Shown in pieces: positions 6,871-64,000 of a DNA stretch of 64,000 bases. Source of the stretch: Heloderma charlesbogerti (Eukaryota > Chordata > Lepidosauria > Squamata > Helodermatidae). A model generated the notes under the pieces. It had not been told where the DNA came from and made no database searches. It saw only the letters and a program-made list of their open reading frames with translations. Every line of letters starts with the position of its first letter. Position 1 is the first letter of the stretch. Location of the stretch: the NCBI GenBank assembly GCA_026122225.1, contig JANEZZ010002065.1:186001-250000 (forward strand), written 5' to 3'. A program made the position numbers and the translations under genes.

Positions 6871-7566
6871 TAGGGGTGGACGAAAGTCCCTTACCTGTCC
6901 TAGAAGGATGTTTGCGGTGGGGGGGAGGCGCTTCACTGCTCCCCCCGCGAAGTTCAGGCCAGGGGGGGGAGGCTTCCCGCCTCGCCCCGGCCGAAATTCA
7001 GGCCGGGGGGGAGGCTTCCCGCCTCGCCTGGCCGCAAACGCGAAAGTTAAAAAAACCAAAACAACGCCCCCTGATAGGCTACGTGATGATTAACGTAGCC
7101 TATCACAGCTAGATCTGCAAAGTCAGCCATGATAGGCTACGTCAATCGTCACGTAGCCTATCACGGGTGACTTTAAAAAAAAAAAAAAGCGCGTACGGTA
7201 ATGGCGGCCCCCATAGGGAGCCGCCATTCGCGTTCCTTATTTGGTCGCTGTAGTCTATGTAAATCTTTACGTAGACTACGGCGAAAATAAGGGCAACGCA
7301 AATAGCGTTGCCCTTATTTTCGCCGTAGTCTACGTAAATCTAGTAGTCTACGTAAATCTGCCGCTCCCGCCCCGCTCGAACACCCGCCGAATCGCCGGCC
7401 GGACCCGCCGCCGGGAGGGACATTTGGCGAAGGTAAGTCCCGTCCCGGGGGGGGGTGCGGGGGGCGGGGGGGTTCGGAGGATTTCTCCCCAAAACGTGTT
7501 CGGGGGGCCAAACACGTTGGCGCTCGGCCCCCCGAAGTTTCGGGGAGAAATTCTCCGCCATCCCTA
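6871..7566. mobile_element. Palindromic hAT MITE, 8-bp TSD ACTGGAAC
   Basis: The termini are TAGGGGTGGACGAAAGTCCC and GAGAAATTCTCCGCCATCCCTA. The octamer ACTGGAAC occurs immediately before (6863-6870) and after (7567-7574), a perfect hAT-size target duplication. The interior runs as hairpins: GATAGGCTACGTGATGATTA with its inverse near 7073-7106, a second near 7131-7162, TAATGGCGGCC...GGCCGCCATT near 7200-7230, and TAGTCTATGTAAA with its inverse. The right end is a GC-rich inverted repeat built on CCGAACACG and CGAAGTTTCGG. No transposase frame exists. The element sits within CR1-like LINE sequence. Confidence 0.9.
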
Positions 7567-15342: not shown

Positions 15343-15852
15343 TAGGGATGGTTCAGGATTCTGACCAGGGGGTGGAGTCTGATGGACTCCCCCCTCCCCG
15401 GCCTCATGGACTCTGCTCACAAGGCTGCAGGGGGCTGGCTTGCCCACTCAGCAATGGGTGAGAAGTGCTGCGAAGCCATCCATCCCCTTATTGAGCTGCA
15501 ATTATGTGCACAATCACGGCTTGGTTACTTCCACATATCTAAAGTTGCATCTATGGCTACATTAAAGGGGCAATGGCTCAAGATTCCAGACATATGCCTG
15601 TAATTGCCTGTAATTTTGAGTCATTGCCCCTTTAATGTAGCCATAGATGCAACTTTGGATCTACGGAAGTAACTGAGCTGCGATTGTGCACACAACTGCA
15701 GCTCGGTAAGGGGAAGGATGGCCACACAGCACTTCTTGGGTGGCCACCAAGCTGTCCTTTAGTTCCTGCAGCATGAGTTGCACGGACAGGCAGCAACAGC
15801 GGCTCGGCAGTCACCCAAAAGGACCAGATGGAGGTGAGGCCGTCCATCCCTA
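15343..15852. mobile_element. Foldback hAT MITE, second family
   Basis: The element starts TAGGGATGGTTCAGGATTCT and ends GGCCGTCCATCCCTA. TTTGTGAT (15335-15342) precedes it and ATTGTGAT (15853-15860) follows: a 7-of-8 target duplication. The inner arms at about 15482-15582 and 15618-15718 are near-perfect inverses roughly 100 bp long (ATCTATGGCTACATTAAAGG and its inverse). The interior differs from the TACGTAAA family, so only the termini are shared. Confidence 0.8.
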
Positions 15853-16353: not shown

Positions 16354-17385
16354 CTAACAGGATCCCAGGCCTCTTCTCCAGCCTGGCAGTTCTTGCTGAA
16401 CTCCCCTGTGACCTCACCCTCTCCAACAGGCATTCAAGAAGAACTCCAACAGGCATTCAAGAAGAACTCTATAGTTCCACATACCTTTTTTTAAGTATGG
16501 GCAATTCTTAAGGGGTCTTCTGTCTATTTTTTACTTTTTCACTTTTTCACCCTGCACTTCCAGGAGCTGAGGCTAGGGATGGCGGAGAATTTCTCCCCGA
16601 AACTTCGGGGGGCCGAGCGCCAACGTGTTCGGCCCCCTGAACAAGTTTCGGGGAGAAATCCTCCGAACCCCCCCCGCACCCCCCCCGGGATGGGACTTAC
16701 CTTCACCGAATGTCCCTCCCGGTGGCTGGTCCGGCCGGCGGTTCGGCGGGTGTTCAGGCGGGGCGGGAGCGGCAGCCGGTCTTTTGACCGGCTGCCGCCG
16801 CCGCCATTGCAATCAAAGAAAAAAAAAATGCCCCCTGATAGGCTACGTGACGATTCACGTAGCCTATCACAGCTAGATCTGCAAAGTCAGCCGTGATAGG
16901 CTACGTCAATCGTCACGTAGCATATCACGAGTGACTTTAAAAAAAAAAGCGCGTACAGATAATGGCGGCCCCCATAGGGAGCCGCCATTCCCGTTCCTTA
17001 TTTAGTCACTGTAGTCTACGTAAATGTTTACGTAGACTATGGCGAAAATAAGGGCAACGCTATCAGGGGGTGTTATTTTGTTTTTTTAAAAACTTTCGTG
17101 TTCGCGGCCGGGGCGAGGCGGGAAGCCTCCCCCCCGGCCTGAATTTCGGCCGGGGCGAGGCAGGAAGCCTCCCCCCCCCAGCCTGAACTTCGCAGGGGGA
17201 CCAGCGAAGCGCCTCCCCCCCACCGCAAACATCCTTCGACGACAGGTAAGGGACTTTCGTCCACCCCTAGCTGAGGCCTCTTCACTAGCCGGGAGTTCTT
17301 CTTGAATGCCTGTTGGAGAGGGTGAGGTCACAGGGGAGTTCAGCAAGAACTGCCAGGCTGGAGAAGAGGCCTGGGATCCTGTTAG
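16354..17385. repeat. Inverted repeat with 94-bp essentially identical arms
   Basis: The left arm 16354-16447 (CTAACAGGATCCCAGGCC ... GAAGAACTCC) and the right arm 17292-17385 (GGAGTTCTTCTTGAATGCC ... GGATCCTGTTAG) are inverse copies with no mismatch that I can find. The spacer is mostly the MITE at 16574-17269. A 24-bp tandem duplication (CAACAGGCATTCAAGAAGAA) ends the left arm. The arms join sequence related to the foldback element family at 42007-45727. Confidence 0.75.
16574..17269. mobile_element. Palindromic hAT MITE, 8-bp TSD GCTGAGGC
   Basis: It opens TAGGGATGGCGGAGAATTTC and closes GGACTTTCGTCCACCCCTA. GCTGAGGC is perfectly duplicated at 16566-16573 and 17270-17277. The first 100 bp form a GC-rich inverted repeat around the CGAAACTTCGG and CCGAACAAGTTTCGG blocks. 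Hairpins of the GATAGGCTACGTGACGATTC type follow at 16835-16870 and 16896-16928, then TAATGGCGGCC...GCCGCCATT, then GTAGTCTACGTAAATG with its inverse. The inner palindrome is cut near its centre (AAGGGCAACGCTATCAGGGG), so the right half of the hairpin chain is missing. Confidence 0.9.
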
Positions 17386-22120: not shown

Positions 22121-22248
22121 TAGGGCGCAATCCTATGCATGTTTAGACAGAGAAAAGGCCTACAACTCCCAGCATTCCCCAGCCAGCTAAGCTGGGAGTT
22201 GTAGGCCTTTTCTCTGTCTAAACGTGCATAGGATTGCACCCTTAACAG
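22121..22248. repeat. Palindromic dispersed repeat with ~50-bp arms
   Basis: GGGCGCAATCCTATGCATG ... CCTACAACTCCCAGC is mirrored by GCTGGGAGTTGTAGGCC ... CGTGCATAGGATTGCACCC. The arms are nearly perfect and separated by about 15 bases. It belongs to the CAATCCTATGCATGTTTA repeat that recurs in squamate genomes. Confidence 0.8.
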
Positions 22249-29586: not shown

Positions 29587-30470
29587 GGAGGTTAATATAG
29601 GAGGAGGAAGATTAAGGTAACCTGGTCCAGACCTTTTAATGCTTTAAAGATCAGAATCACACTTTGAATTAAGTAGGGATGGCAGAGAATTCTGCCACAG
29701 ATCACAGTGAGGCCGAACGCCAGTGCATTCGGCCCCCCGAAATCTGTGGCGGAACGGCCTGCCACCCCCCCGCCCCCCCAGATCCTCCCCCGGGACAAGA
29801 CTTACCTGGGGTGGATCTTCCGGGCAGTGGCGGCTTCGGCGGCAGCGGCTGGTCTTCTGACCAGCTGCCGCCGCTGCTATTTGCAGTTTTTTGTTTTTTT
29901 TTACAGAGATGTGATAGGCTACGTAAGTTTTTACGTAGCCTAAAATGTCTGGGTAAAAAAAAAGGCATACGCAAATGGCGGCTACAGCCGCTGCCATTTG
30001 CGTTCCTTAGTTTGGGCCATCTTAGTCTACGTAAATATTTACGTAGACTAAGATGGCGAAAATAAGGGGAACGCAAATAGTGTCAGCTACGCTATTTGCA
30101 TTCCCCTTATTTTCGCTGTCTTAGTCTACGTAAATATTTACGTAGACTAAGATGGCCCAAACTAAGGAACGCAAATGGTGGAGGCCATAGCCGCTGCCAT
30201 TGCGTACACGGCTTTTTGGTTTTTTTTCCCCCAGAGCCCTCCGCGGCCGGAAATCTGGCTGCAGACGGCTCTGGCCTAGCTGGGCCTGGACGGCTGCTCC
30301 GCGGATCTGCCATGGAGCACAGCCGGTCATGGAGGATTCCAGGGGGAGGGACAGAATGCCTCCCCCCCCACCATAAACATAATCTGCGAAAGGTAAGTGA
30401 CTTTCGTACACCCCTAGAATTAAGCCTGGAAAACAAATTGGTAGCCATTTGATTTGACTATAGAAGGTTA
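29587..30470 (-). mobile_element. L2-type LINE fragment, minus strand, interrupted
   Basis: GGTCCAGACCTTTTAATGC ... TCACACTTTGAATTAAG resumes after an inserted MITE as GAATTAAGCCTGGAAAACAA...GGTAGCCATTTGATTTG. Read on the minus strand this is the LINE region coding ILIFKALKGLDQ, the same block as at 15070 and 19310. Confidence 0.65.
29674..30416. mobile_element. Palindromic hAT MITE, 8-bp TSD GAATTAAG
   Basis: It opens TAGGGATGGCAGAGAATTCT and closes GTGACTTTCGTACACCCCTA. GAATTAAG is exact at 29666-29673 and 30417-30424. The two-level structure is clear. The TAGTCTACGTAAATATTTAC hairpin (30026-30052) and its twin (30121-30152) flank a centre of GCAAATAGTGTCAGCTACGC (30071-30098). CAAATGGCGGCTACAGCC hairpins lie outside them. 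Only the left half keeps a GATAGGCTACGTAAGTT hairpin (29912-29942). The insertion is in L2 LINE sequence. Confidence 0.92.
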
Positions 30471-33101: not shown

Positions 33102-33873
33102 TAGGGATGTACAAATTGTGTTCTTTCAGTGCCGCTTGACTTCCACAGTTTGCGGCCAGTGCTCCGTTCTGCTGTTCACAAGCCCCTGGAATTCTCCTCT
33201 TTTTTTCCACTCTGAAAATTACGAAGATAAATCTGTACCAAAAACCGTAATTCCAGTGCCCAGCCATCTCCGTGACTCCGCATAACTTCCCTAAGAATCG
33301 CTATTTTTTCAAAAATATTTAAGTATTTTTTTAAAAAATTGAAATCCTCCGTCTCTGTTTCCTTTCAGCCAAAACACTTCCTCTTCCTAGGGGCTTCCCA
33401 AAGGAAGGCTGTCTTAGGTGTGCCTGAGCGATAAACTCTTTGTTTGAAGCAACGCTGTTTTAAAGAAAGAAAAAACCTTTTAAAATGACCATGCTGGTCC
33501 TGGAGTGGCATGGTCATTTTAAAAGGTTTTTTCTTTCTTTCAAACAGTGTTGCTTTAAACAAAGAGTGCATTGCTCAGGCACACCTAGGACAGCCTTCTT
33601 TTGGGAAGCCCCTAGAAAGAGGAAGTGTTTTGGCTGAAAGGAAACAGAGACAGAGGATTTCAATTTAAAAAGAACACCCACAAACAAGGCGGTGAGCACA
33701 ATTCATTTTTTAAAAAAACTTAGGTATTTATTATTGGAATATTCTACACTGCATTTTTATTTACGAAAATTTTGTGACTCCTTGCGGATGACGAAAGGAT
33801 GACGATTCCGTGGCACGGACTGAAGGGAATTTGATCCCATTTCAGTCTGTGGCAGAATTCTCTGACATCCCTA
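33102..33873. mobile_element. Foldback hAT element, 8-bp TSD CTGATGGG
   Basis: It starts TAGGGATGTACAAATTGTG and ends GGCAGAATTCTCTGACATCCCTA. CTGATGGG is exact on both sides (33094-33101, 33874-33881). The arms 33341-33500 and 33507-33665 are near-perfect inverses (TTTCAGCCAAAACACTTCCT and inverse, AAACTCTTTGTTTGAAGCAA and inverse), meeting at GACCATGCTGG. The outer ends equal those of the larger element at 42007-45727, so this is a shorter deletion derivative of that family. Confidence 0.92.
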
Positions 33874-34194: not shown

Positions 34195-34940
34195 TTTATT
34201 ATTGTTACATTTACGTATTTGTTACATTTATATCCCATCTTTCTTCCAAGTCAGGTTACAGTATCCTCCTCCTCCTCCTCTCTATTTTATCCTCACTAGG
34301 GATGTGTGGATACCCTACCTGTTGGTCTGCGGGGGAATCCGCTCGCGTGGGGAGGCGATCTGTCCCTCCCCCCAGAATCCGTCCAGGCCGGCTCCACTAC
34401 ACATTGATCCTGTGGAGCTGGCCGCCAGCTTCGCATAGCTGCTGAATGTCGATATGGCCGGCATCCATTGCCGTGCCATATCGCTGTAAGTCTCCGGATG
34501 CAAATGGCGTAGTGAGCACCATTTGCTGCCGTAAAGCTGGTAGATTAGCCTAAATGCAGCCATAAATGGCTGTATTTAGGCTAATATACCAGCTTTATGG
34601 CTGCAAATGGTGCCCACTACGCCATTTGTGTCCGGAGACTTACTTACAACAATACAGCATGGCAATGGCTGCCGGCCGTATCGACATTCGGCAGTGATGC
34701 GGAGCAAGCGGCTGGCTCCGCAGGATCGACACCAAGACGGATCTGACCCGGACGGATTCCAGGGGGAGGCAGAGGCTAGTGTTCCGTTCCACCACGGACT
34801 CCGGGGGGGGGTGCATTCTTTAGAATCCGGCCTCATTGGAGTCCGTGGCGGAATTCTCTGCCATCCCTAATCCTCACAGCAACCCTGTGAGGTAGGTTAA
34901 ACAGTGAGGCAGAGACTGGCCCAAAGTCACCCAGGGAGCT
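34195..34940. repeat. MIR-like or LINE-3'-end dispersed repeat, interrupted
   Basis: CATTTATATCCCATCTTTCT ... TTTTATCCTCAC continues after the inserted element as AGCAACCCTGTGAGGTAGGT ... TGGCCCAAAGTCACCCAGG. I recognise this order as a dispersed tetrapod repeat (MIR-like core and LINE-type 3' end). A MITE at 34297-34869 splits it. Confidence 0.5.
34297..34869. mobile_element. Palindromic hAT MITE, 8-bp TSD ATCCTCAC
   Basis: It opens TAGGGATGTGTGGATACCC and closes GGCGGAATTCTCTGCCATCCCTA. ATCCTCAC is exact at 34289-34296 and 34870-34877. The core is one large palindrome, about 34485-34650: GTCTCCGGATGCAAATGGCG ... TTAGCCTAAATGCAGCC and inverse, centred on CCATAAATGGC. The stem words differ from the TACGTAAA type, so this is a distinct subfamily with the same architecture and the same ends. 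Confidence 0.9.
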
Positions 34941-39403: not shown

Positions 39404-40355
39404 TAGGGATGGCGGAGAATTTCTCCCCGAAACTTCGGGGGGCCGAGCGCCAACATGTTCGGCCCCCCGAAGAAGTTTCGGGGAGAAATTCTCCGCCCCC
39501 CCGCCCCCCCCAGGACAGGACTTACCTTTCCCGAATGTCCCTCCCGGCGGCGGGTCCCGGCGGCGGTTCGTCGGGTCTTCGTCAGGGGCGGGGGCGGCAA
39601 CTGGTCTTTTGACCAGCTGCTGCCGACGCCATTCCAATAAAAGTAAAAAAAAACAACAACGCCCCCATGATAGGCTACGTGACGATTAACGTAGCCTATC
39701 ACGGCTAGATTTGCAAAGTCAGCCGTGATAGGCTATGTAAATCGTCACGTAGCCTATCACGGGTGACTTTTTTAAAAAAAGCGCGTACGGCTAATGGCAG
39801 CCCCCATAGGGAGCCGCCATTCACATTCCTTATTTGGTCGCTGTAGTCTACGTAAAGATTACGTAGACTACAGCGAAAATAAGGGCAACGCTATTTGTGT
39901 TGCCCTTATTTTTGCCGTAGTCTATGTAAAGATTTACGTAGACTACAGCGACCAAATAAGGAATGCGAATGGCAGCTCCCTATGGGGGCCGCCATTTGCG
40001 TACGCACTTTTTTTTTATTTTATTAAGTCACCCGTGATAGGCTACGTGACGATTTACGTAGCCTATCACGGCTGACTTTGCAGATCTAGCCGTGATAGGC
40101 TACGTTAATCGTCACGTAGCCTATCACGGGGGCGTTTTTTTTAAAAAACTTTTTATTTCGTGGCCGGCGAGGCGACTCCTCCCCGGCCTGAATTTCAGCC
40201 GGGCGAGGTGGGAAGCCTCCCCCCCAGCCTGAATTTCGGCCGGGCGAGGCAGGAAGCCTCCCCCCCTGGCCTGAACCTCGGGGAGAGAGCAGCGAAGCGC
40301 CTCCCCCCCACCGCGAAAAGCTGTGAGACTAGGTAAGTGGCTTTCGTGCACTCCT
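39404..40355. mobile_element. Full-length palindromic hAT MITE
   Basis: It opens TAGGGATGGCGGAGAATTTC and closes GTGGCTTTCGTGCACTCCT. The left GC-rich inverted repeat is followed by the complete symmetrical series: GATAGGCTACGTGACGATTA hairpin, second GATAGGCTATGTAAATC hairpin, TAATGGCAGCC hairpin and TAGTCTACGTAAAG hairpin. Then come the centre CAACGCTATTTGTGTTGC (39886-39905) and the same four in mirror order to about 40130. The flanks (CATCTATC / GTCACATG) show no clear duplication, so the right boundary could be off by a base or two or altered. Confidence 0.85.
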
Positions 40356-40740
40356 GTCACATGCCATCAACTGGGAGTGCTCAAGGATTTCCTTTGGTCT
40401 GCATTTTGAAGCAAACCAGCCCGATCCTCATTTCCCAGACTTAGGTACAGATTGGAACAAAGTTATCCTTTTGATTTTGCACCTCTCCAAATTTTGCAAT
40501 TAGTTTTGGCTCAAATAATGTACCAAAATGCATATAAAAAGTGTCTTTTTGGATAAAATACATATATAAATGCATACTTTGAGGGAAAAAATCATTTAGA
40601 AATGTATATTGTTTGAGAAAATATATGCAAAAATATGTATTTAAGAATTTTCATGATAATTTTTTTGAAGTGGAGAATTCGCACAAAAATAAACAAAAGG
40701 AATTGTATGAAACTTTAATTATGTAATATATTCACTACAA
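40356..40740. other. Unassigned AT-rich sequence
   Basis: AT-rich sequence with many ATATAAA and AAAATATG words. No recognised repeat or gene. Confidence 0.45.
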
Positions 40741-42775: not shown

Positions 42776-44302
42776 TAGGGATGTACGAAAGATCCGCCAC
42801 GGATCTCGGGGAGGCCGAATGCCAGTGCATTCGGCCCCCCGAAATTGGTGGTGGAACAGCCCGCCACCCCCCTGCCACCCCCCAGGGATGGGACGTAGCT
42901 TGGGCGGATCTTCCTGGCGGAGGTGGCTCTGGCGGCAGCTCTGGCGGCAGCTTCGGCGGCGGTTTGGCGGCAGCCGGTCTTCCGACCGGCTGCCACCACT
43001 GCCATTTCCAGTTAAAAAAACCAAAAATAACCAAAAAAAACAAAAAAAAGTGATAGGCTACATAAAGATTTACGTAGCCTATCACGGCTAGATTTAAAAA
43101 AAACACCGTGATAGGCTAAGTATATGTTTACGTAGCCTATCATGGCTGACTTAAAAAATACACACGCGCATATGCAAATGGCGGCGGCCGTGGCCGCCGC
43201 CATTTGCGTTCCTTATTTTGGCACGTCTTAGTCTACGTAAACATTTAAGTAGACTAAGATGGCAAAAATAAGGGGAACACAAATAGCGTAGACGCTACGC
43301 TATTTGCGTTCCCCTTATTTTCGCCGTCTTAGTCTACGTAAATGTTTACGTAGACTAAGACGTGCCAAAATAAGGAACGCAAATGGCGGCGGCCATGGCT
43401 GCCGCCATTTGCGTACGCACGTTTTTGTTTTAAATCAGCCGTAATAAGCTATGTAAACATTTACGTAGCCTATCACAGCTGACTGCAGGGACGCAAATGG
43501 TGGCGGCTACGGCTGCCGCCATTTGCATCCCTGCTAGCCAGAGGCCAGATGTTAGGGATGGCGGAGAATTTATCCCCGAAACTTCGGGGGGCCGAGCACC
43601 AACGTGTTCGGCCCCCCGAACAAGTTTCGGGGAGAAATCCTCCGCACCCCCCCGCCATCCTCCTATAATAATAGCGTTGCCCTTATTTTCGCCATAGTCT
43701 ACGTAAATCTTTACGTAGACTACAGGGACCAAATAAGGAACACGAATGGCGGCTCCCTATGGGGGCTGCCATTAGCGTACGCGCTTTTTTTTTTTTTTTT
43801 AACGTCAGCCGTGATAGGCTACGTGACGATTAACGTAGCCTATCATGGCTGACTTTGCAGATCTAGCCGTGATAGGCTACGTTAATTGTCACGTAGCCTA
43901 TCACGGGGGCGTTTGTTTTTTTTAAAAAAAAATTCGAATTCGCGGCCGGGCGAGGAGGGAAGCCTCCTCCCCGGCCTGAATTTCGGCCGGGGTGAGGCGG
44001 GAAGCCTCCCCCCCCGGCCTGAACTTCGCGGGGGGAGCAGCGAAGCGCCTCCCCCCCACCGCGAACAAGCTTCGGCGAAAGGTAAGGGACTTTCGTCCAC
44101 CCCTACCAGATGTCTGGATGCTGGAGGAGCCGGCCAGCGGCTCCGCAGAATCCCTGCAGAGCGGAGCCGGCCGGCCAGGATTCCGGGGGGGAGGAACGGA
44201 GCGCAACCCCCCCCAGCAAGGATTCCGGGGGGAGGGACAGAACGCCTCACCCCCAGCATCAACGTAATCCACGGAAAGGTAAGTCACTTTCGTACATCCC
44301 TA
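42776..44302. mobile_element. Palindromic hAT element, 8-bp TSD CAAATGCA, with nested copy
   Basis: It opens TAGGGATGTACGAAAGATCC and closes AAGTCACTTTCGTACATCCCTA. CAAATGCA is exact at 42768-42775 and 44303-44310. The palindrome series is centred at GCGTAGACGCTACGC (43287-43301) with TAGTCTACGTAAA hairpins at about 43230-43260 and 43331-43362 and CAAATGGCGGCGGCC hairpins outside them. The right flank of the series is interrupted by a second copy (43553-44105). The host is the giant foldback element 42007-45727. Confidence 0.92.
43553..44105. mobile_element. Nested palindromic hAT MITE, 8-bp TSD CCAGATGT
   Basis: It opens TAGGGATGGCGGAGAATTTA and closes GGGACTTTCGTCCACCCCTA. CCAGATGT is exact at 43545-43552 and 44106-44113. 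The left GC-rich terminal inverted repeat is present, but the left hairpin series is deleted; it resumes at TAGCGTTGCCCTTATTTTCG and continues through the right half. This is the third level of nesting in the locus. Confidence 0.92.
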
Positions 44303-45843
44303 CAAATGCAGCATGAAGGGAAAGATCAGCAACCTTCTCTTTGTTTGAATAAAAAGCACACTCTGCACATGCTCAGGGAACGGACAAAATGAGGAATAAA
44401 CATACCAGAGAATATGAAGAACTATATTCTTCCATTATGAGGGTGTGTGTGGAATCTCCCTCCATCCAGCTGTTCCCTGGGGAAAAAAAAAACCCATTCA
44501 CCCAAGGGTCTTCTGAGATAACTAACAGGAGGTCCAATAATGAACTGGATGTGGAAATACAAAGCTGAGTAGAGAGGAGAACCAACTCTGTGCATGTCTA
44601 CTCAGATGTAAGTCTTACTGAGTTCAATGCAACTTACTCCTACACATGTCAGCACCCCACTTGCCCCCGGCACAGCTTTGTATTTCCACATCCACCTCAT
44701 TATCAGACTTCCTGTTAGTTATCTCAGAAGACCCTTGGGTGAAGGGGGGGGGGTTTCCAGGGAACAGCTGGATGGAGGGAGATTCCCCCCCCACACACAC
44801 ACACACACACATAATGGAAGAATACAGTTCTTCATATTCCCTGGTATGTTTATTCCTCATTTTGTCCATTCCCTGAGCATGTGCAGAGTGTGCTTTTTAT
44901 TCAAACAAAGAGAAGGTTGCTGATCTTTCCCTTCATGCTGCATTTGTACAAGTGAAGTGTGACTGCTTCAGAAAGAACTTTCCATTATACTGTCTCTTTT
45001 TCTTCATGAGTTTCATAACAGAAGTATGATGTAGTGGTGAGAGTCCAGCCCAAAGTTACCCAGTGAGATAACTAACAGAAGCTTTGCTAATGAGCTGGAT
45101 TGGATGTGGAAATACAAAGCTAAGCTGGGGGCAAGTGGGGTGCTGACATGTGTAGGAGTAAGTTGCATTGAACTCAGTAAGTCTTACTTCTGAGTAGACA
45201 TGCACAGAGTTGATTCTCCTCTCCATTTTAGCCTCACCATGTCACCAACAAGGCTGGATGTGGAAATAGGAAGCCTAGCAGGGGGAGTAATACTCATGCA
45301 GGGCTCCAGACTGGCATGGTCATTTTAAAAGGTTTTTTCTTTCTTTCAAACAGCGTTGCTTTAAACAAAGAGTGCATCACTCAGGCACACCTGGCGCAGC
45401 CTTGTTTTGGAAAGTCCCAAGGAGGAGGAAGTGTTTTGGCTGAAAGTTTTGGAGAGGGAGGATTTCAATTGAAAAAGAACACCCACAAACAAGGCAGTGA
45501 TCACAATTCATTTAAAAAAAAAAACTGATGCATTTATTATCGAAATATACTACCTTGCATTTTTATTTACGAAAATTTCACGGCTCTGTGCGGATGACAA
45601 AAAAAAAAGCCGCATGACTGCTGGCTCCGCAGGACCTTGTGGTGCCGTTCCGCAGAGGATTCCGTGGCACAGACTGAAGGGAATTCGATCCCATTTCAGT
45701 CCATGGCGGAATTCTCTGACATCCCTACCTGAGCTTCCTCATCTGAAAAGGCCCTATGGGAGGAATTACATTATGATTCCTTTACCTGGGCTTTAACTGA
45801 AGAGCAGAAAGCCAAGGATGCTACAAGCTGCCAGAGAAATAAC

Positions 45844-46781
45844 TAGGGATGGCGGAGAATTTCTCCCCAAAACTTCGGGGGGCCGAGCACCAACGTGTTC
45901 GGCCCCCCGAACAAGTTTCGGGGAGAAATCCTCCGCACCCCCCCCGCACCCCCCCCACCCCACCCCCGGGACAGGACTTACCTTCCTTGAATGTCCCTCC
46001 CAGCGGCGGGTCCGGCTGGCGGTTCGTCGGGTGTTCGAGCGGGGCGGGAGCGGCAGCCGGTCTTTCGACCGGCTGCCGCCCCCGCCATTGCAATCAAAGA
46101 AAAAAAAAAAAAGTCCCCTGATAGGCTACGTGACGATTCACGTAGCCTATCACGGCTAGATTTGCAAAGTCAGCCGTGATAGGCTACATGAATCGTCACG
46201 TAGCCTATCACGGGTGACTTAAAAAAAAAAAAAAAAGCGCGTACGGATAATGGCGGCCCCCATAGGGAGCCGCCATTCCCGTTCTTTATTTGGTTGCTGT
46301 AGTCTATGTAAAGATTTACGTAGACTACGGCGAAAATAAGGGTAACGCTATTTGCGTTGCCCTTATTTTCGCTGTAGTCTACGTAAACATTTACGTAGAC
46401 TACAGCAACTAAATAAGGAACACGAATGGCGGCTCCCTATGGGGGCCGCCATTCGCGTACGCGCCTTTTTTTTTTTTTTTTAAGTCACCCGTGATAGGCT
46501 ACGTGATGATTCACGTAGCCTATCATGGCTGACTTTGCAAATCTAGCCGTGATAGGCTACGTGAATTGTCACGTAGCCTATCAGGGGGCGTTTTTGTTTT
46601 TTTTTTAACTTTCGCGTTCGCGGCCGGGCGAGGCGGCAAGCCTCCTCCCCGGCCTGAATTTCGGCCGGGTGAGGCGGGAAGCCTCCCCCCCCGGCCTGAA
46701 CTTCATGGGGGGAGCAGCGAAGCGCTCCCCCCCACCGCAAACAAGCTGCGAGAAAAGGTAAGTGACTTTCGTCCACCCCTA
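45844..46781. mobile_element. Full-length palindromic hAT MITE, 8-bp TSD GAAATAAC
   Basis: It opens TAGGGATGGCGGAGAATTTC and closes GTGACTTTCGTCCACCCCTA. GAAATAAC is exact at 45836-45843 and 46782-46789. The hairpin order is GATAGGCTACGTGACGATTC (46122-46153), a second at 46178-46210, TAATGGCGGCC (46248-46278), GTAGTCTATGTAAAG, the centre GGTAACGCTATTTGCGTTGCC (46341-46361), then the mirror series to 46582. The right end holds the GGCCGGGCGAGGCGG block repeated twice. It is a good reference copy for the family. Confidence 0.95.
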
Positions 46782-46789
46782 GAAATAAC

Positions 46790-49158: not shown

Positions 49159-49981
49159 TAGGGCCGTGCACCGCTTTGGTCTGAAGCCTGAATAATGAGG
49201 TGAAGCAGGCTGATTCAGAGGTGCCTCATCATGATACGAAGCAGATCTGACCAGCACCGAGGTGCCCTGAAGCAAAACAGCTCCTACATGAGGTGCCTCC
49301 TCTACCTCAGAGATTCATAGCTCTTCTTATCACTTCTGAGCAGCCAGACAGGCTATCTCCAAAACGTTTCAACTTCTGAAAGATCACACAGAGGGGCAAG
49401 AGGAGGGAGGGGGAAGGAGAGCAGATGAAGGAGGAGGAGGGAGTGGGAAGAGGGAGGAGGGGGGAGTATGCTTCAGCAAATGAGAACTCTAGGGATGAAC
49501 CTAAGCCAGCAGTCTCAAATCAGAGACAGTGGTGGAGGAGGGGGGTATATAATAGTTTGGCAAAAGGCTGTGCTTGTCCATTGTGTGAGGTGGTTGGTAG
49601 GGGTGTATGGATTGTACTCACCCTTGTCCGCCTGTGGGTCTGTGGTGGGGGGAGGTGATCTGGTCCTCCCCCCAGAATCCTCCCCACCCAGCTCTGCTCT
49701 ACGGCAAGTCCACAGAGCCGCTGGCCGGCTCTGGCCGTTGCCAGACTTCTGGCCATGGCCTGTCTATGGAAGCAAATGGCATCCAGCGTAGCGGACGCCA
49801 TTTGTGTCCCTGCCTTTTGCCATGATAGGCTACTTAAATCTTTACGTAGCCTATCACGGCAGAAAGCAGGAATGCAAATGGCATCTGCTATGCTGGACGC
49901 CATTTGCGTCCGAAGACAGGCAGCAGCAGATGGCAGCAGATGGCAGCGGACGTACGGCGGCAGGTAGGATCCAGCCAGCAT

Positions 49982-50814
49982 TAGGGATGGCGGAGAATTT
50001 CTCCACGAATCTCAGGGAGGCCAAATGCCAACGCATTCGGCCCCCCGAAATTGTTTGTGAAATTCCCGCCACCCCCCTGCCACCCCCCGGGATGTGACTT
50101 ACCTCCCTCGAATGTCCCTCTTGGCGGCGGGTCCCGGCGGGAGTTCGGCGGCGGTTCGTCGGGGTCGGGGGTGGCGGCCAGTCTTCCGACCGGCTGCCGC
50201 CGCCGCCATTACAAAATAAAGTAAAAAAAAACACACCCTTGATAGGCTACGTAACGATTTACGTAGCCTATCACGGCTAGATTTCCAAAGTCAACCGTGA
50301 TAGGCTACGTAAATCGTTACGTAGCCTATCACGGGTGACTTTGGGGGAAAAAAAAAGCGCGTACGCAAATGGCGGCGCCCATGGGCAAATAGCGTTGCCC
50401 TTATTTTCACCGTAGTCTACATGAATCTTTACGTAGACTACCGGGACCAAATAAGGAATGCAAATGGCGGCGCCCATGGGTGCCGCCATTTGCGTACGCG
50501 CTTTTTTTTTTTCAAAGTCACCCGTGATAGGCTACGTAACAATTTATGTAGCCTATCATGGCTGACTTTGGAAATCTAGCCGTGATAGGCTATGTAAATC
50601 ATTACGTAGCCTATCACAGGTGTTTTGTATTTTTTTTCCACTTTTTTATTTCGCGGCCGGGGAGACGGGGCGCCTCCCCCCCTGGCCTGAATTTCAGCCG
50701 GACGAGGCGGGGCGCCTCCCTCTCCGGCCTGAACTTCGGGGGGAGAACCGAAGCGCCTCCCCCCCACCGCGAAGCAAGCTGCGGGACCAGGTAAGTGCCT
50801 TTCGTACATCCCTA
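49982..50814. mobile_element. Nested palindromic hAT MITE, TSD GCCAGCAT/GCCAGCGT
   Basis: It opens TAGGGATGGCGGAGAATTTC and closes GTGCCTTTCGTACATCCCTA. The flanking octamers agree at 7 of 8. Its left terminal region (CTCCACGAATCTCAGGG) is intermediate between the two major subfamilies. The hairpins GATAGGCTACGTAACGA lie at 50242-50275 and 50297-50330; mirror copies lie at 50527-50560 and 50583-50616. Part of the left CAAATGGCGGCGCC / TAGTCTAC series is deleted near 50385. Confidence 0.88.
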
Positions 50815-50898
50815 GCCAGCGTGGATTCCCCCGGGTGGCAGAGGTGAGTCTTTCGTTCCCTCGCAGACTCCGGGGGGGGGCGGATTCTTTGAATCCAG

Positions 50899-51898
50899 TA
50901 GGGATGTACAAAAGTCACTTACTTTTTGCGGATTATTTTGATGGTGGGGGGGAGGCATTCCGTTCCTCCCCCCTGGAATCCTCCGCGGCCGGCTATGCTC
51001 CGTGGCAGCTCCGCGGAGCAGCCAGCCAGGCCCAGCTGGGCCACTGCCATCCGCAGCCGGATTTCCAGCCACGGAGGGCTCTGGGGGAAAACAAACAAAC
51101 AAACACGTACACAAACACGTTCCTTATTTTTGCCGTCTTAATCTACGTAAATATTTACGTAGACTATGACAGCGAAAATAAAGGGGAACGGAAATAGCGT
51201 AGCGGGCGCTATTTGCGTCCCTTTTTGATTCACCATTTTAGCCTACATAAATATTTATGTAGGCTAAAACAGTGAATCAGAAAGGATGCAAATAGCGCCC
51301 GCTACGCTATTTGTGTTCCCCTTTATTTTCGCCGTCATAGTCTACGTAAATATTTATGTAGATTAAGACAGCAAAAATAAGGCTGTAGCCGCCGCCATTT
51401 GCGTACACGATTTTGTTTTTTTTGTTTTTTAACCCAGCCATGATAGGCTACATAAATCTTTATGTAGCCTATCACGTCGTTGTTGTTTTTTTTAACCCAG
51501 CCATGATAGGCTACGTAAATCTTTACATAGCCTATCACGTCGTTGTTGTTGTTTTTAACCCAGCCATGATAGGCTACGTAAATCTTTACATAGCCTATCA
51601 CGTCGTTTTTGTTGTTTTTTAACCCAGCCATGATAGGCTGTGTAAATCTTTATGTAGCCTATCACGCCGTTTTTTGTTTGTTTGTCTTTTACAAGACAAA
51701 CGGTGGCGGCGGCAGCCGGTCGGAAGACCAGCCGCCGCAGCCACTGCCGCCCGGAAGATCTGCCCCAGGTAAGTCTCATCCCAGGGGGGATACGGGGGGG
51801 CAGGGGGGGGCAGGCCGTTCTGCTACAGATTTCGGGGGGCTGAATGCACTGGCATCCGGCCTCACCGAGATCCGTGGCGGAATTCTCTGCCATCCCTA
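50899..51898. mobile_element. Nested palindromic hAT MITE, TSD GAATCCAG/GAATCCGG
   Basis: The 1000-bp element opens TAGGGATGTACAAAAGTCAC and closes GGCGGAATTCTCTGCCATCCCTA. The flanks agree at 7 of 8. The central palindrome is long: TTAGCCTACATAAATATTTA (about 51238-51270) lies between GCAAATAGCGTAGCGGGCGC and its inverse. The right half has four tandem GATAGGCTACGTAAATC hairpins instead of the usual one or two. A consensus splice donor CAGGTAAGTC occurs at about 51766. Confidence 0.9.
51431..51684. repeat. Four tandem 63-64-bp hairpin modules
   Basis: AACCCAGCCATGATAGGC recurs at 51431, 51494, 51557 and 51621. Each unit is one TGATAGGCTACGTAAATC hairpin plus a T/G-rich linker (CGTTGTTGTTTT). 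The regular spacing points to recent tandem duplication of a single module. Confidence 0.92.
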
Positions 51899-51953
51899 GA
51901 ATCCGGACTCATTGGAGTCCGTGGCAGAATTCTCCGCCATCCCTAGTGGTTGG

Positions 51954-61118: not shown

Positions 61119-62048
61119 TAGGGATGGCGGAGAATTTCTCCCCAAAACTTCGGGGGGCCGAGCGCCAACGCGTTCGGCCCCCCGAACAAGTTTCGGTGAG
61201 AAATCCTCCACACCCCCCGCACCCCGCCCGCCCCCGGGACGGGACTTACCTTCCCTGAATGTCCCTCCCGGCGGCGGGTCCGGCTGGCGGTTCGTCCGAT
61301 GTTCGAGCGGGGCGGGAGCGGCAGCCGGTCTTTCGACCGGCTGCCGCCCCCGCCATTGCAATGAAAGAAAAAAAAAACGTCCCCTGATAGGCTACGTGAC
61401 GATTCACGTAGCCTATCATGGCTAGATTTGCCAAGTCAGCTGTGATAGGCTACGTGAATCGTCACGTAGCCTATCCCGGGTGACTTAAAAAAAAAAAAAA
61501 AAAGTGTGTACGGATAATGGCGGCCCCCATAGGGAGCCGCCATTCCCATTCCTTATTTGGTGGCTGTAGTCTACGTAAATGTTTACGTAGACTATGGCGA
61601 AAATAAGGGCAACGCTATTTGCGTTGCCCTTATTTTCACCGTAGTCTACGTAAACATTTATGTAGACGACAGCCACTAAATAAGGAACGCGAATGGTGGC
61701 TCCCTATGGGGGCCGCCATTCGCGTACGTGCTTTTTTTTTTTTTTTAAGTCACCCGTGATAGGCTACGTGACGATTCACGTAGCCTATCACGGCTGACTT
61801 TGCAGATCTAGCCGTGATAGGCTACGTGAATCGTCACGTAGCCTATCAGGGGGCGTTGTGTTTTTTTTTTTTTACTTTCGCGTTCGCGGCCGGGCGAGGC
61901 GACGCACCTCCTCCCCGGCCTGAATTTCGGCCGGGCGAGGCGGGAAGCCTCCTCCCCCCGGCCTGAACTTCGCAGGGGGAGCAGCGAAGCGCTCCCCCCC
62001 ACCGCGAACGGCCTTCGACGACAGGTAAGCGACTTTCGTCCACCCCTA
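61119..62048. mobile_element. Full-length palindromic hAT MITE, 8-bp TSD ATATACGA
   Basis: It opens TAGGGATGGCGGAGAATTTC and closes GCGACTTTCGTCCACCCCTA. ATATACGA is exact at 61111-61118 and 62049-62056. The hairpin chain is symmetrical about CAACGCTATTTGCGTTGC (61610-61627). On each side lie a TAGTCTACGTAAATG hairpin, an AATGGCGGCCCCC or AATGGTGGCTCCC hairpin, and two GATAGGCTACGTGACGATTC-type hairpins (61385-61418 and 61443-61475 on the left; 61759-61790 and 61815-61848 on the right). With 45844-46781 it is the cleanest complete copy. Confidence 0.95.
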
Positions 62049-62506: not shown

Positions 62507-64000
62507 TAGGGATGGCGGAGAATTCCGCCATGGATTCCAGTGAGGCCAGATTCTTTAGACTCCGCCCCCCCGGAATCCGTGGCGGAATGGCCTCCTGCCC
62601 CCCCGCCCCCTGCAGAATCCCCCCGGGACAGCACTTACCTGGGGCGGATGTGGTGGATTCGGCGGCAGCGGCAGCTCTGGCGGCGGTAGCTCCGGTGGCT
62701 GGTCTCCTGGCCAGCCGCAGCTAGGGATGTCAGAGAATTCCACCACGGATCGCGGTGAGGCCGAATGCCAGTGCATTCAGCCCCCCGAACTCCATGGCGG
62801 AACGGCCTGCCACCCCCCCGCCACCTCGCGGATCCCCCCCGGGATGAGACTCAGCTGGGGTGGATCTTCCAGGCAGCGGCAGCAGGTCTTCTGACCGGCC
62901 GCCGCCATTTCCAGGCTTGTGTAAAAAAAAAAAAGATGTGATAGGCTACGTAAAGATTTACGTAGCCTATCATGCCTAGGTTTAAAAAAAAAGAAAAAAA
63001 GACATGATAGGCTACGTAAATCTTTACGTAGTCTATCATGGTTGGGTGGGTTTAAAAAAAAAAACCCACGTACGCAAATGGCGGCAGCTACGGCCGCCGC
63101 CATTTGCGTACCATCTTTTTACTGTCTTAATATACGTAAATATTTACGTAGACTATGATGGTGAAAATAAAGGGGAACGCAAATAGCATAGCGGTCGCTA
63201 TTTCAGTCCCCTTTTGATTTGCCGTTTTAGCCTATGTAAAGATTTACGTAGGCTAAAACAGTGAATGAAAAAGAGATGCAAATAGCACCCGCTATGCTAT
63301 TTGCATTCCCCTTTATTTTCGCCGTCACAGTCTACGTAAATATTTACGTAGATTAAGACAGCCAAAAAGAAGGAACACAAATGGGGGCGACCGTAGCCAC
63401 CGCCATTTGCGTACGCAGTTTTTGTGTGTGTGTGTGTTTTTACCCAGAGCCCTCAGCGGAAATCTGGCTGCGGACAGCTCTGGCCGGGCCGGGCCGGGCC
63501 TGGCCTGGCCGGCTGCTCCGCGGAGCTGCCACGGAGCACAGCCGGCTGTTCAAGGATTCCAGGGGGAGGAACGGAGCGCCTCCCCCCCCCGGCCAGGATT
63601 TCAGGGGGAGGGACGGAACACCTCCCCCCCATCATCAACATAATCCGCGAAAGGTAAGTCACTTTCATACATCCCTAGCCGCAGCAGGGCGGCTGCCACT
63701 GCCATTGCTGTCCTTGGAGCGTGATAGGCTACGTAAGAATTTACGTAGCGTATCACGGCTAACCTAAACAAAAAACAGTGCAGCGTACGGAAATGGCAGT
63801 GGCTATGGCGGCCACCATTTGCATCCCCCTTTTTTTTTGCCGATTTTTCTTACATAAATATTTACGTAAGATAAAACGGCGGGAAAAAAAGGGGGAAGCA
63901 AATAGCGTAGTGGATGCTATTTGCGTTCCTTTATTTTTCACTCTTCTAGCCTATGTAAATATTTACATAAGATAAATTGGTGAAAAATAGAGAACGCAAA
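62507..64000. mobile_element. Palindromic hAT element running off the window, with nested copy
   Basis: It opens TAGGGATGGCGGAGAATTCC after CTTCCTGC. No matching right end occurs before the window stops. After the nested copy, its own hairpins continue at 63719-63752 (GATAGGCTACGTAAGAA) and 63780-63820 (AAATGGCAGTGGC). TTACATAAATATTTACG follows at 63850, and TAGCCTATGTAAATATTTAC at 63949. Confidence 0.8.
62722..63677. mobile_element. Nested palindromic hAT MITE, 8-bp TSD GCCGCAGC
   Basis: It opens TAGGGATGTCAGAGAATTCC and closes AAGTCACTTTCATACATCCCTA. GCCGCAGC is exact at 62714-62721 and 63678-63685. Hairpins GATAGGCTACGTAAAGA lie at 62940-62971 and 63005-63038. The centre at about 63235-63262 is a TTAGCCTATGTAAAG hairpin between mirror-image GCAAATAGC words. 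The element carries both common terminal subtypes, one at each end. Confidence 0.93.

Follow-up and report, generated by a model that had tools for sequence, protein, structure and literature searches.

How does a transposable element come to have an interior in which every module is a hairpin and the modules together form one larger hairpin? Positions 45844-46781 of the 64,000-nucleotide stretch of Heloderma charlesbogerti DNA analysed here (the window) raise this question. The original prediction took them for one copy of a hAT MITE family whose whole interior is a second-order palindrome, that is, self-complementary hairpins set in mirror order about a single centre. Here we describe this reference copy, its relatives in the window and in the genome (the family and its related subfamilies being referred to as the clan), and a longer hAT element from whose 3' end the palindrome was probably derived.

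Architecture and classification of the reference copy

The reference copy begins with TAGGGATGGCGGAGAA and ends with CTTTCGTCCACCCCTA, and its interior runs from a GATAGGCTACGT doublet through a AATGGCGGC and a TAGTCTACGTAAA hairpin to a central AAATAAGGGYAACGC hairpin and then through the same modules in reversed order (Table 1). Self-complementary modules in mirror order, as predicted, make up central palindromes of about 500 bp (89-91%) in 45844-46781, 39404-40356 and 61119-62048. These are three of the four intervals that had been called second-order palindromes; the fourth, 29674-30416, has a 239-bp palindrome and belongs to another subfamily. In two respects the proposed design had to be revised. 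It has a third level in addition to the two described, with doublets of about 100 bp lying between hairpins of about 34 bp and the palindrome of about 510 bp, and the spacer between the paired GATAGGCTACGT hairpins of the reference copy is itself near-palindromic. Moreover, the mirrored part is consensus 248-757 of 973 rather than the whole interior, the ends of about 250 bp on the left and about 215 bp on the right carrying other, non-mirrored hairpins; the left end of the reference copy (45844-46095) has no mirror counterpart on the right side. When 46096-46606 was folded as single-stranded DNA, the check proposed with the prediction, it reached -277.7 kcal/mol and was far more stable than 100 shuffles (-63.5 +/- 4.9 kcal/mol). 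With a minimum length of 60 codons, the interval 45844-46781 is overlapped by six reading frames, which have 62-113 codons.

Table 1. Clan elements in the window and modules of the reference copy
Feature	Positions	Strand	Remarks
Copy without most of the left arm	6871-7566	-	duplication ACTGGAAC
Copy without the right arm: left end, palindrome centre, right end	16574-17269	+	duplication GCTGAGGC
Shorter element of a different subfamily, 239-bp palindrome (88.4%) at 29968-30206	29674-30416	+	duplication GAATTAAG
Clan element, 331-bp palindrome (91.8%), unrelated sequence	33102-33873	-	duplication CTGATGGG
Clan element, 405-bp palindrome (79.5%), other hairpin modules	34297-34869	-	duplication ATCCTCAC
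Copy, 491-bp palindrome (88.6%) at 39652-40142	39404-40356	+	right terminus CTCCTG
Clan element hosting a nested copy; both termini of the right-type pattern	42776-44302	.	duplication CAAATGCA
Copy without the left arm, nested in 42776-44302	43553-44105	+	own perfect duplication CCAGATGT
Reference copy, full-length non-autonomous hAT element	45844-46781	+	8-bp duplication GAAATAAC on both flanks
Target-site duplication GAAATAAC, 8 bp, left flank	45836-45843	.	
Left end: TIR TAGGGATGGCGGAGAA, 85-bp terminal hairpin, GGACTTACC motif, CAGCCGGTC hairpin	45844-46095	+	
Level-3 palindrome, 511 bp, 91.2% self-complementary	46096-46606	.	centre about 46351
Left level-2 doublet a-g-a	46120-46209	.	GATAGGCTACGT hairpins 46120-46151 and 46178-46209 flank GATTTGCAAAGTC spacer
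Left hairpin c (AATGGCGGC)	46249-46277	.	
Left hairpin b (TAGTCTACGTAAA type)	46299-46328	.	
Central hairpin d (AAAATAAGGGYAACGC-TATTT-GCGTTGCCCTTATTTT; AAATAAGGGYAACGC hairpin)	46330-46372	.	apparent breakage hotspot in other copies
Right hairpin b	46374-46403	.	
Right hairpin c	46425-46453	.	
Right level-2 doublet a-g'-a	46493-46582	.	hairpins 46493-46524 and 46551-46582
Right end: GGCCGGGCGAGGC...GCCTC hairpin units, AGGTAAGTGACTTTCGTCCACCCCTA terminus	46607-46781	+	same end type closes the presumed autonomous element
Target-site duplication GAAATAAC, 8 bp, right flank	46782-46789	.	
Copy, 506-bp palindrome (89.6%) at 61364-61869	61119-62048	+	duplication ATATACGA
Further subfamily, 363-bp palindrome, different mirror order	62722-63677	+	duplication GCCGCAGC

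Several features support the assignment of the family to non-autonomous hAT elements, as a large MITE. The 8-bp target-site duplications, the TAGGGATG/CAYCCCTA ends and the nested palindromes of many copies are in keeping with the predicted class. With regard to the hAT target preference nTnnnnAn, which is not counted among these features, T stands at position 2 in 31 of 64 duplications and A at position 7 in 23 of them (a few insertions are listed twice). The termini, TAGGGATG/CAYCCCTA with at most one mismatch, are short inverted repeats of the Ac/hobo type (this pattern was the selection rule for the 27 clan elements described below), and the left terminus TAGGGATG equals the first 8 bases of the maize Ac/Ds end C/TAGGGATGAAA as given in the accessible text of PMC3260210. 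Inverted terminal repeats and 35,024 left ends in the genome are what one expects of a MITE, about 0.9 kb being long for such an element, and the presumed partner element encodes a transposase with a BED finger and a hAT dimerisation domain. The family does not have the form of a Foldback element: the palindrome takes up consensus positions 248-757 only, the two ends differ, and the termini lie outside the inverted repeat.

Within the window, GATAGGCTACGT arms with at most two mismatches number 109 compared with 2.7 expected, a total that none of 100 shuffles reached. Allowing two mismatches per arm, we counted 49 GATAGGCTACGT hairpins, in agreement with the predicted "about fifty". The TAGTCTACGTAAA type, of which about twenty hairpins had been predicted, does recur, but the count of 46 (two mismatches per arm) is an upper figure because the GATAGGCTACGT and TAGTCTACGTAAA types are related and cross-match. 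We looked for a target-site duplication around 39404-40356 and found none. Outside the verified elements, a palindrome of at least 60 bp is present in 16 of 61 window stretches; 12 of the 16 overlap clan sequence and four (21701, 28101, 44201 and 58301) are free of it. Clan elements are inserted in other clan elements inside 42776-44302 and inside 49598-51945, where the nested element at 49982-50814 has its own duplication with one mismatch. A 648-bp foldback of unrelated sequence (81.9%) lies at 44301-44948, with the clan element at 42776-44302 inserted at its edge (duplication CAAATGCA), and palindromes outside the clan assignment are found at 15461-15736 (276 bp, 82.6%) and 22122-22242 (121 bp, 88.5%). 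(Note that Rfam gave no match in the window at the gathering score, on which ground a known RNA family was rejected as the identity of these sequences.)

Copies across the genome and the related subfamilies

In the 2.30-Gb genome the exact GATAGGCTACGT 12-mer occurs 253,965 and 254,010 times on the two strands, compared with 106 and 126 times for a reversed control. Left ends amount to 17,495 + 17,529 = 35,024 (at most one mismatch in 25; control 0) and centre arms to 38,013 + 37,928 = 75,941 (at most three mismatches in 26; control 0). Note that the equal strand counts are uninformative about artefacts because every palindrome supplies both strands. We sampled 70 copies by their exact left end; a right end with a duplication (at most one mismatch) was found for 46 of them, 40 of these duplications being perfect, and 24 copies were without one. 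When the 46 are taken together with nine elements from the window, a centred palindrome of at least 400 bp is present in 40 of the 55 elements and one of at least 200 bp in 46, which bears out the prediction of a multi-copy family with nested symmetry and extends the mirror order beyond one or two copies. The recurrent module order among the 70 sampled copies is L k k' [a a' g a a'] c c' b b' d d' b b' c c' [a a' g' a a'] p R', with variation by losses and gains of modules. A tandem satellite origin was rejected, the module order being mirrored rather than head-to-tail.

A consensus of 973 bp was built from 27 long copies (870-985 bp; six of that size, L015, L016, L017, L018, L023 and L072, were omitted by choice, and two outliers, L028 and L071, are still included). 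Its positions 248-757 align to their own reverse complement with 488 of 513 identities (95%). Copies diverge from the consensus by 5.8% on average, and by 4.5% outside CpG, a divergence that suggests amplification in a fairly recent burst. Among the samples, L010/L091 and L011/L093 are the same insertions present twice, and L031 and L032, which share a duplication, look like one insertion. Duplications or left flanks consisting of hairpin pieces (GTAGCCTA, CGTAGACT, AGCCTATC and GATAGGCT) are seen in L059, L065, L069 and L026, which are probably insertions into hairpins of other copies. L012 and L066 have a left-type end on both sides, joined via the palindrome. The minus strand of L055 carries at positions 1-963, next to a truncated copy, a receptor exon of the seven-transmembrane family C (Pfam 7tm_3, E 4.7e-86), which we take to be of the vomeronasal type and which makes a squamate origin of the DNA plausible. 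An exact search of viral contigs, which does not reach diverged relatives, gave no match to the 32-bp hairpin pattern.

The nested-palindrome design recurs in related subfamilies. We assembled a set of 27 clan elements that terminate in TAGGGATG/CAYCCCTA and are flanked by perfect duplications. The window supplied 13 of them, and 13 of 20 additional regions yielded the other 14 (W_5116 was left out as redundant with W_5621); their GATAGGCTACGT arm counts are not independent since the 20 regions were picked around GATAGGCTACGT. The longest palindrome is at least 150 bp in 22 of them, at least 200 bp in 20 and at least 400 bp in eight, compared with a longest centred palindrome of 34 bp among 135 dinucleotide shuffles (five for each element). 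Three of the elements have no GATAGGCTACGT or TAGTCTACGT arm at up to two mismatches and are palindromic in other sequence, namely 33102-33873, 34297-34869 and L090:216-738, the last with a 273-bp palindrome (73.6%). When hairpins were clustered, a type D that includes both TAGGCTACGT and TAGTCTACGT was found to alternate with other types in mirror order in several subfamilies: the consensus reads A B C D D E D F D E D D G G G H, 29674-30416 reads Q U C D M D F D M S V, and L087 reads V S M D F D m D M D C U Q. Other clan elements are incomplete or not symmetric. The D core TAGNCTACGTRA is present in 24 or 25 of the 27 elements, in 207 arms, by a search anchored on that core (the figure of 25 includes two doubtful arms in 34297-34869).

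Breakpoints in the copies fall preferentially at the centre of the palindrome. Of 60 breakpoints, 13 lie at consensus 497-510, in 13 different copies, compared with 0.86 expected; the best 14-bp window starting outside consensus 481-519 holds three. (The 14-bp window was defined after the breakpoints had been viewed; the centre itself was a prior prediction.) The 60 derive from 23 junctions with an insert of at most 25 bp, drawn from 46 jumps, and from 14 chain ends before position 800 among 33 listed, including that of L058, which is a deletion to the right terminus and not a truncation. In four of the 13 (L030, L033, L034 and L067) the copy stops and runs into other DNA, and the rest are deletions with one end at the centre. 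This pattern fits a breakage hotspot such as hairpin or cruciform breakage would give, with the reservation that the loci come from one assembly and that centre breakpoints could include assembly faults. Of 13 copies examined, eight have a 72-nt centre from which one b and d are gone, so that a symmetric c-b-c remains; the crossover points within b differ among the eight. Being a palindrome, each module repeats its mirror partner in direct as well as in inverted orientation, and slippage deletions (c b d b c to c b c) therefore preserve the symmetry.

A candidate autonomous partner and the probable origin of the palindrome

A search for an autonomous partner with the same termini, proposed together with the prediction, led to a candidate hAT element of about 9.4 kb that shares the right end of the MITE. 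Of 871 candidates for the hAT dimerisation domain in the genome, 150 were scored matches, many in long open frames, and the first ten were judged by eye to be one family. These ten gave no end just downstream of the frame because the element extends about 3.7 kb 3' of it. zf-BED (E 6.8e-5) and Dimer_Tnp_hAT (E 1.3e-16) domains were recognised in the transposase frame of 879 codons, whose match in the PDB is Hermes (E 3.6e-15). The left end of the element is TAGGGATGTCAGAGAAATTCTC, the homology of two copies beginning exactly there. Copy C235 extends from 52195 to about 61582, starts with TAGGGATGTCAGAGAA, ends in ...AGGTAAGTGACTTTCATCCACCCCAA (last bases CCAA rather than CCTA) and is flanked on both sides by CACAACAC. 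C1330, the second copy examined at both ends, is without a duplication; two bases separate it from another clan end. In L100, L102, L106 and L107, CGTACATCCCTA stands 3' of the hAT frame and equals the last 12 bases of one clan terminus; the sequence around it continues unchanged past this terminus-like 12-mer.

Sequence of the right half of the MITE closes the 3' end in all nine hAT copies read there. Seven of them match consensus 436-973 (83-92%), C235 matches from about 508, and C1725 is without about 680-853. The last 540 bp or so of the hAT element are a hairpin chain, [d b]n c [a g a] p R, in which the [d b] unit occurs once in C235, twice in seven copies and at least three times in C1725. 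Genome-wide we found 144 left ends of this element and 55 pre-chain sequences (at most three mismatches), and at least 40 of the 55 pair with a correctly oriented left end no more than 20 kb away (among the 100 left ends listed of the 144), most pairs being 8.6-11 kb apart. The 35,024 MITE left ends outnumber those of the presumed parent by about 240 to 1. As judged from these sequences, the MITE is most likely mobilised in trans by the 9.4-kb element of the same genome. When the MITE left end (1-247) was compared with that of two hAT copies, the match did not go beyond the first 25 bp or so, and neither the window nor sampled loci L009-L098 contained the hAT left end. The MITE thus has its left end from another source, and the two hAT copies are not its full direct parent.

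We consider it probable that the MITE is a non-autonomous hAT element whose palindrome arose by fold-back duplication of the hairpin-rich hAT 3' end. The b-d-b unit is shared by the MITE and seven of the nine hAT 3' ends; modules c and a-g-a stand on both sides of it in the MITE and on the right only in the hAT element. In the MITE, a second, inverted occurrence of the segment from c to the T-tract lies beyond b-d-b, which makes the interior a palindrome composed of palindromes; the mirrored stretch is bounded by an A-tract at its left edge and by a T-tract at its right. In all 13 alignment columns in which the two MITE arms differ, the hAT copies agree with the right arm, and in none with the left; with three columns at the window edge and three in the T-tract set aside, they match the right arm in seven of seven. 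The left arm therefore appears to be the derived inverted copy.

The proposed route would begin with the b-d-b palindrome, potentially a hairpin of about 100 nt, folding during replication or gap repair. The nascent strand would prime on its own b arm, copy c and a-g-a backwards and leave at the A/T tract; the copied strand would be joined to a left end, and the symmetric molecule would then be amplified to tens of thousands of copies. The arms and boundaries observed fit a nascent strand that folded at b-d-b and exited at a homopolymer. Two models in the accessible literature likewise invoke template switching in replication or repair: FoSTeST or gap filling for TIR elements, followed by amplification by transposase (PMC8277862), and fold-back at breaks, by which short inverted insertions of 5-34 bp are documented in yeast (PMC11724301). 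As far as the available texts go, the former concerns captured non-TE DNA and the latter 5-34-bp inverted insertions, and neither concerns recursive palindromes.

The direction of transfer might also have been the reverse, the autonomous element having taken its 3' end from the MITE clan. The left ends of the MITE and the hAT element differ, and the clan is diverse, with most members unlike the hAT element, both of which speak for such a capture; we nevertheless regard it as unlikely, given that the hAT 3' end is without the inverted c/a-g-a arm and agrees with the right arm at all informative sites, and that the chain is present from consensus 436 onward in seven of the nine hAT copies read. 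Note, however, that other subfamilies have modules and palindromes of their own, and that one fold-back event is insufficient for all of them.

Possible roles of the hairpins and comparison with known systems

The most economical reading of the hairpin chain would be a candidate transposase-binding array made symmetric by fold-back. In particular, we tentatively suggest that the BED-finger transposase binds the hairpins as palindromic subterminal sites, fold-back having given both sides the same array. AAGTSACTT occurs once each in 11 of the 27 clan elements, always starting at base 14 from the terminus. TGACTT occurs 53 times compared with 5.4 in shuffles, and the CTACGT core 148 times, in 24 of the 27, compared with 5.2; these counts are not independent because the elements are related and were partly chosen by a motif containing CTACGT. 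In the accessible account of Hermes (PMC10368747), BED domains bind a quasi-palindromic pair of AAGT-motif subterminal repeats at left-end 11-27, these repeats need exact positions, and BED domains do not bind the right end. Such end rules would argue against a long, variably spaced array on both sides. An AGGTAAG-like motif points outward at both ends in 17 of the 27 clan elements and inward within 220 bp in none. As the main role of this motif, an outward splice donor seems less likely than a transposase site, because AAGTSACTT always starts at base 14, where Hermes, in the portion of its description that is available, has its subterminal repeats.

A larger scheme would make the clan a self-renewing recursive palindrome, in which hairpins would serve both as transposase sites and as fold-back primers, rearrangements would yield new symmetric ladders, ladder carriers would outcompete their autonomous parent, and independent subfamilies would repeat the process. 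We think this improbable, and its standing is lowered by the binding of no BED domain at the Hermes right end (PMC10368747, as far as its available text goes). The palindromes might instead be functionless by-products of fold-back and slippage mutation, with abundance owed to good termini only, a reading that is possible if somewhat doubtful. It is in line with the palindromic form of unrelated interiors (33102-33873, 34297-34869 and L090:216-738), with the module expansions and contractions in L011, L053 and L075, and with the short fold-back insertions of yeast, as described in the accessible text of PMC11724301; it sits less well with the presence of the chain in all nine hAT 3' ends read and with the retention of the D core in 24 or 25 of 27 clan elements, subject to the anchored search and the two doubtful arms.

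Rather less likely, in our view, is that the hairpins were selected as DNA or RNA structure, as an end-pairing cruciform or a small-RNA stem, and that selection for folding rather than copying keeps the symmetry. The consensus interior folds very stably at three levels (-314.8 kcal/mol as one long hairpin, -217.0 with a span of at most 110 and -172.9 with a span of at most 45), the breakage at the centre fits a structure that forms in cells, and a- and b-type hairpins differ by paired changes; among b hairpins, 42 cells are changed on both sides to a standard pair, compared with 15 changed without pairing and 142 changed on one side. The a-hairpin arms, on the other hand, show 243 one-sided changes and 11 paired ones among copies, 10 of the 11 at CpG (arms with at most two mismatches only). 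These arms vary independently, so no correction or selection is apparent in place, and the retention of CTACGT across subfamilies goes beyond the need of a purely structural role. Finally, palindromes are prone to misassembly, and collapsed or reflected reads could in principle mimic them; we regard such an artefact as extremely improbable, because 40 of the 70 sampled copies have perfect duplications, nearly all of different sequence, and the palindrome is found at separate places in 40 of the 55 elements.

Fold-back duplication of the hAT 3' end, the origin that we prefer, traces at sequence resolution one concrete way in which an autonomous hAT element can give rise to a high-copy MITE, by inverted copying of a hairpin-rich 3' end. 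The origin of MITEs, and the reasons why some of them are amplified, have yet to be explained; for the present family a likely parent can be named, as can the derived arm, the turning point and the stopping point. Moreover, with tens of thousands of dispersed natural copies, this genome could serve as a test bed for palindrome instability.

The following comparisons are limited to the accessible text of the sources cited. With Foldback and Galileo elements (PMC3688188, PMC4168063) the family shares unusually long inverted repeats, which in Galileo hold multiple binding sites for the transposase domain. Galileo, however, is a P-superfamily element in which the long inverted repeats lie at the termini, whereas here the ends are asymmetric and the interior alone is mirrored; Foldback elements are set apart because their inverted repeats reach the ends. 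Maize Ac/Ds (PMC3260210) is closer, as a hAT system with 8-bp duplications, TAGGGATG ends, forms that depend on an autonomous element, and subterminal repeats. Its Ds classes are internal deletions or have little Ac homology, a nested palindrome is not described in that text, and chromosome-breaking double Ds was not detected there in B73. Hermes (PMC10368747) has in common with the present system a BED-domain hAT transposase and an AAGT motif near the end, here AAGTSACTT at 14-22 from the right terminus; it has few short repeats, at exact positions and at one end, in place of a hairpin chain of several hundred bp.

The suggestion that no family of this hierarchical design had been described holds in part. 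In the open-access literature, a scope that excludes Repbase and Dfam, we found no family with the same chain of hairpin modules, but gadMor-hAT-1784 of Atlantic cod comes close and is the nearest precedent found (PMC12368964). This hAT MITE has two inverted repeats of about 600 bp built of 167-169-bp tandem units; they are called TIRs, and self-complementary hairpin units or derivation from an autonomous 3' end are not described in the available text. Like the family studied here, gadMor-hAT-1784 is hAT-derived and palindromic, with long inverted repeats that are themselves internally repeated; the lack of an open frame and the near-complete loss of the coding middle are probably shared as well.
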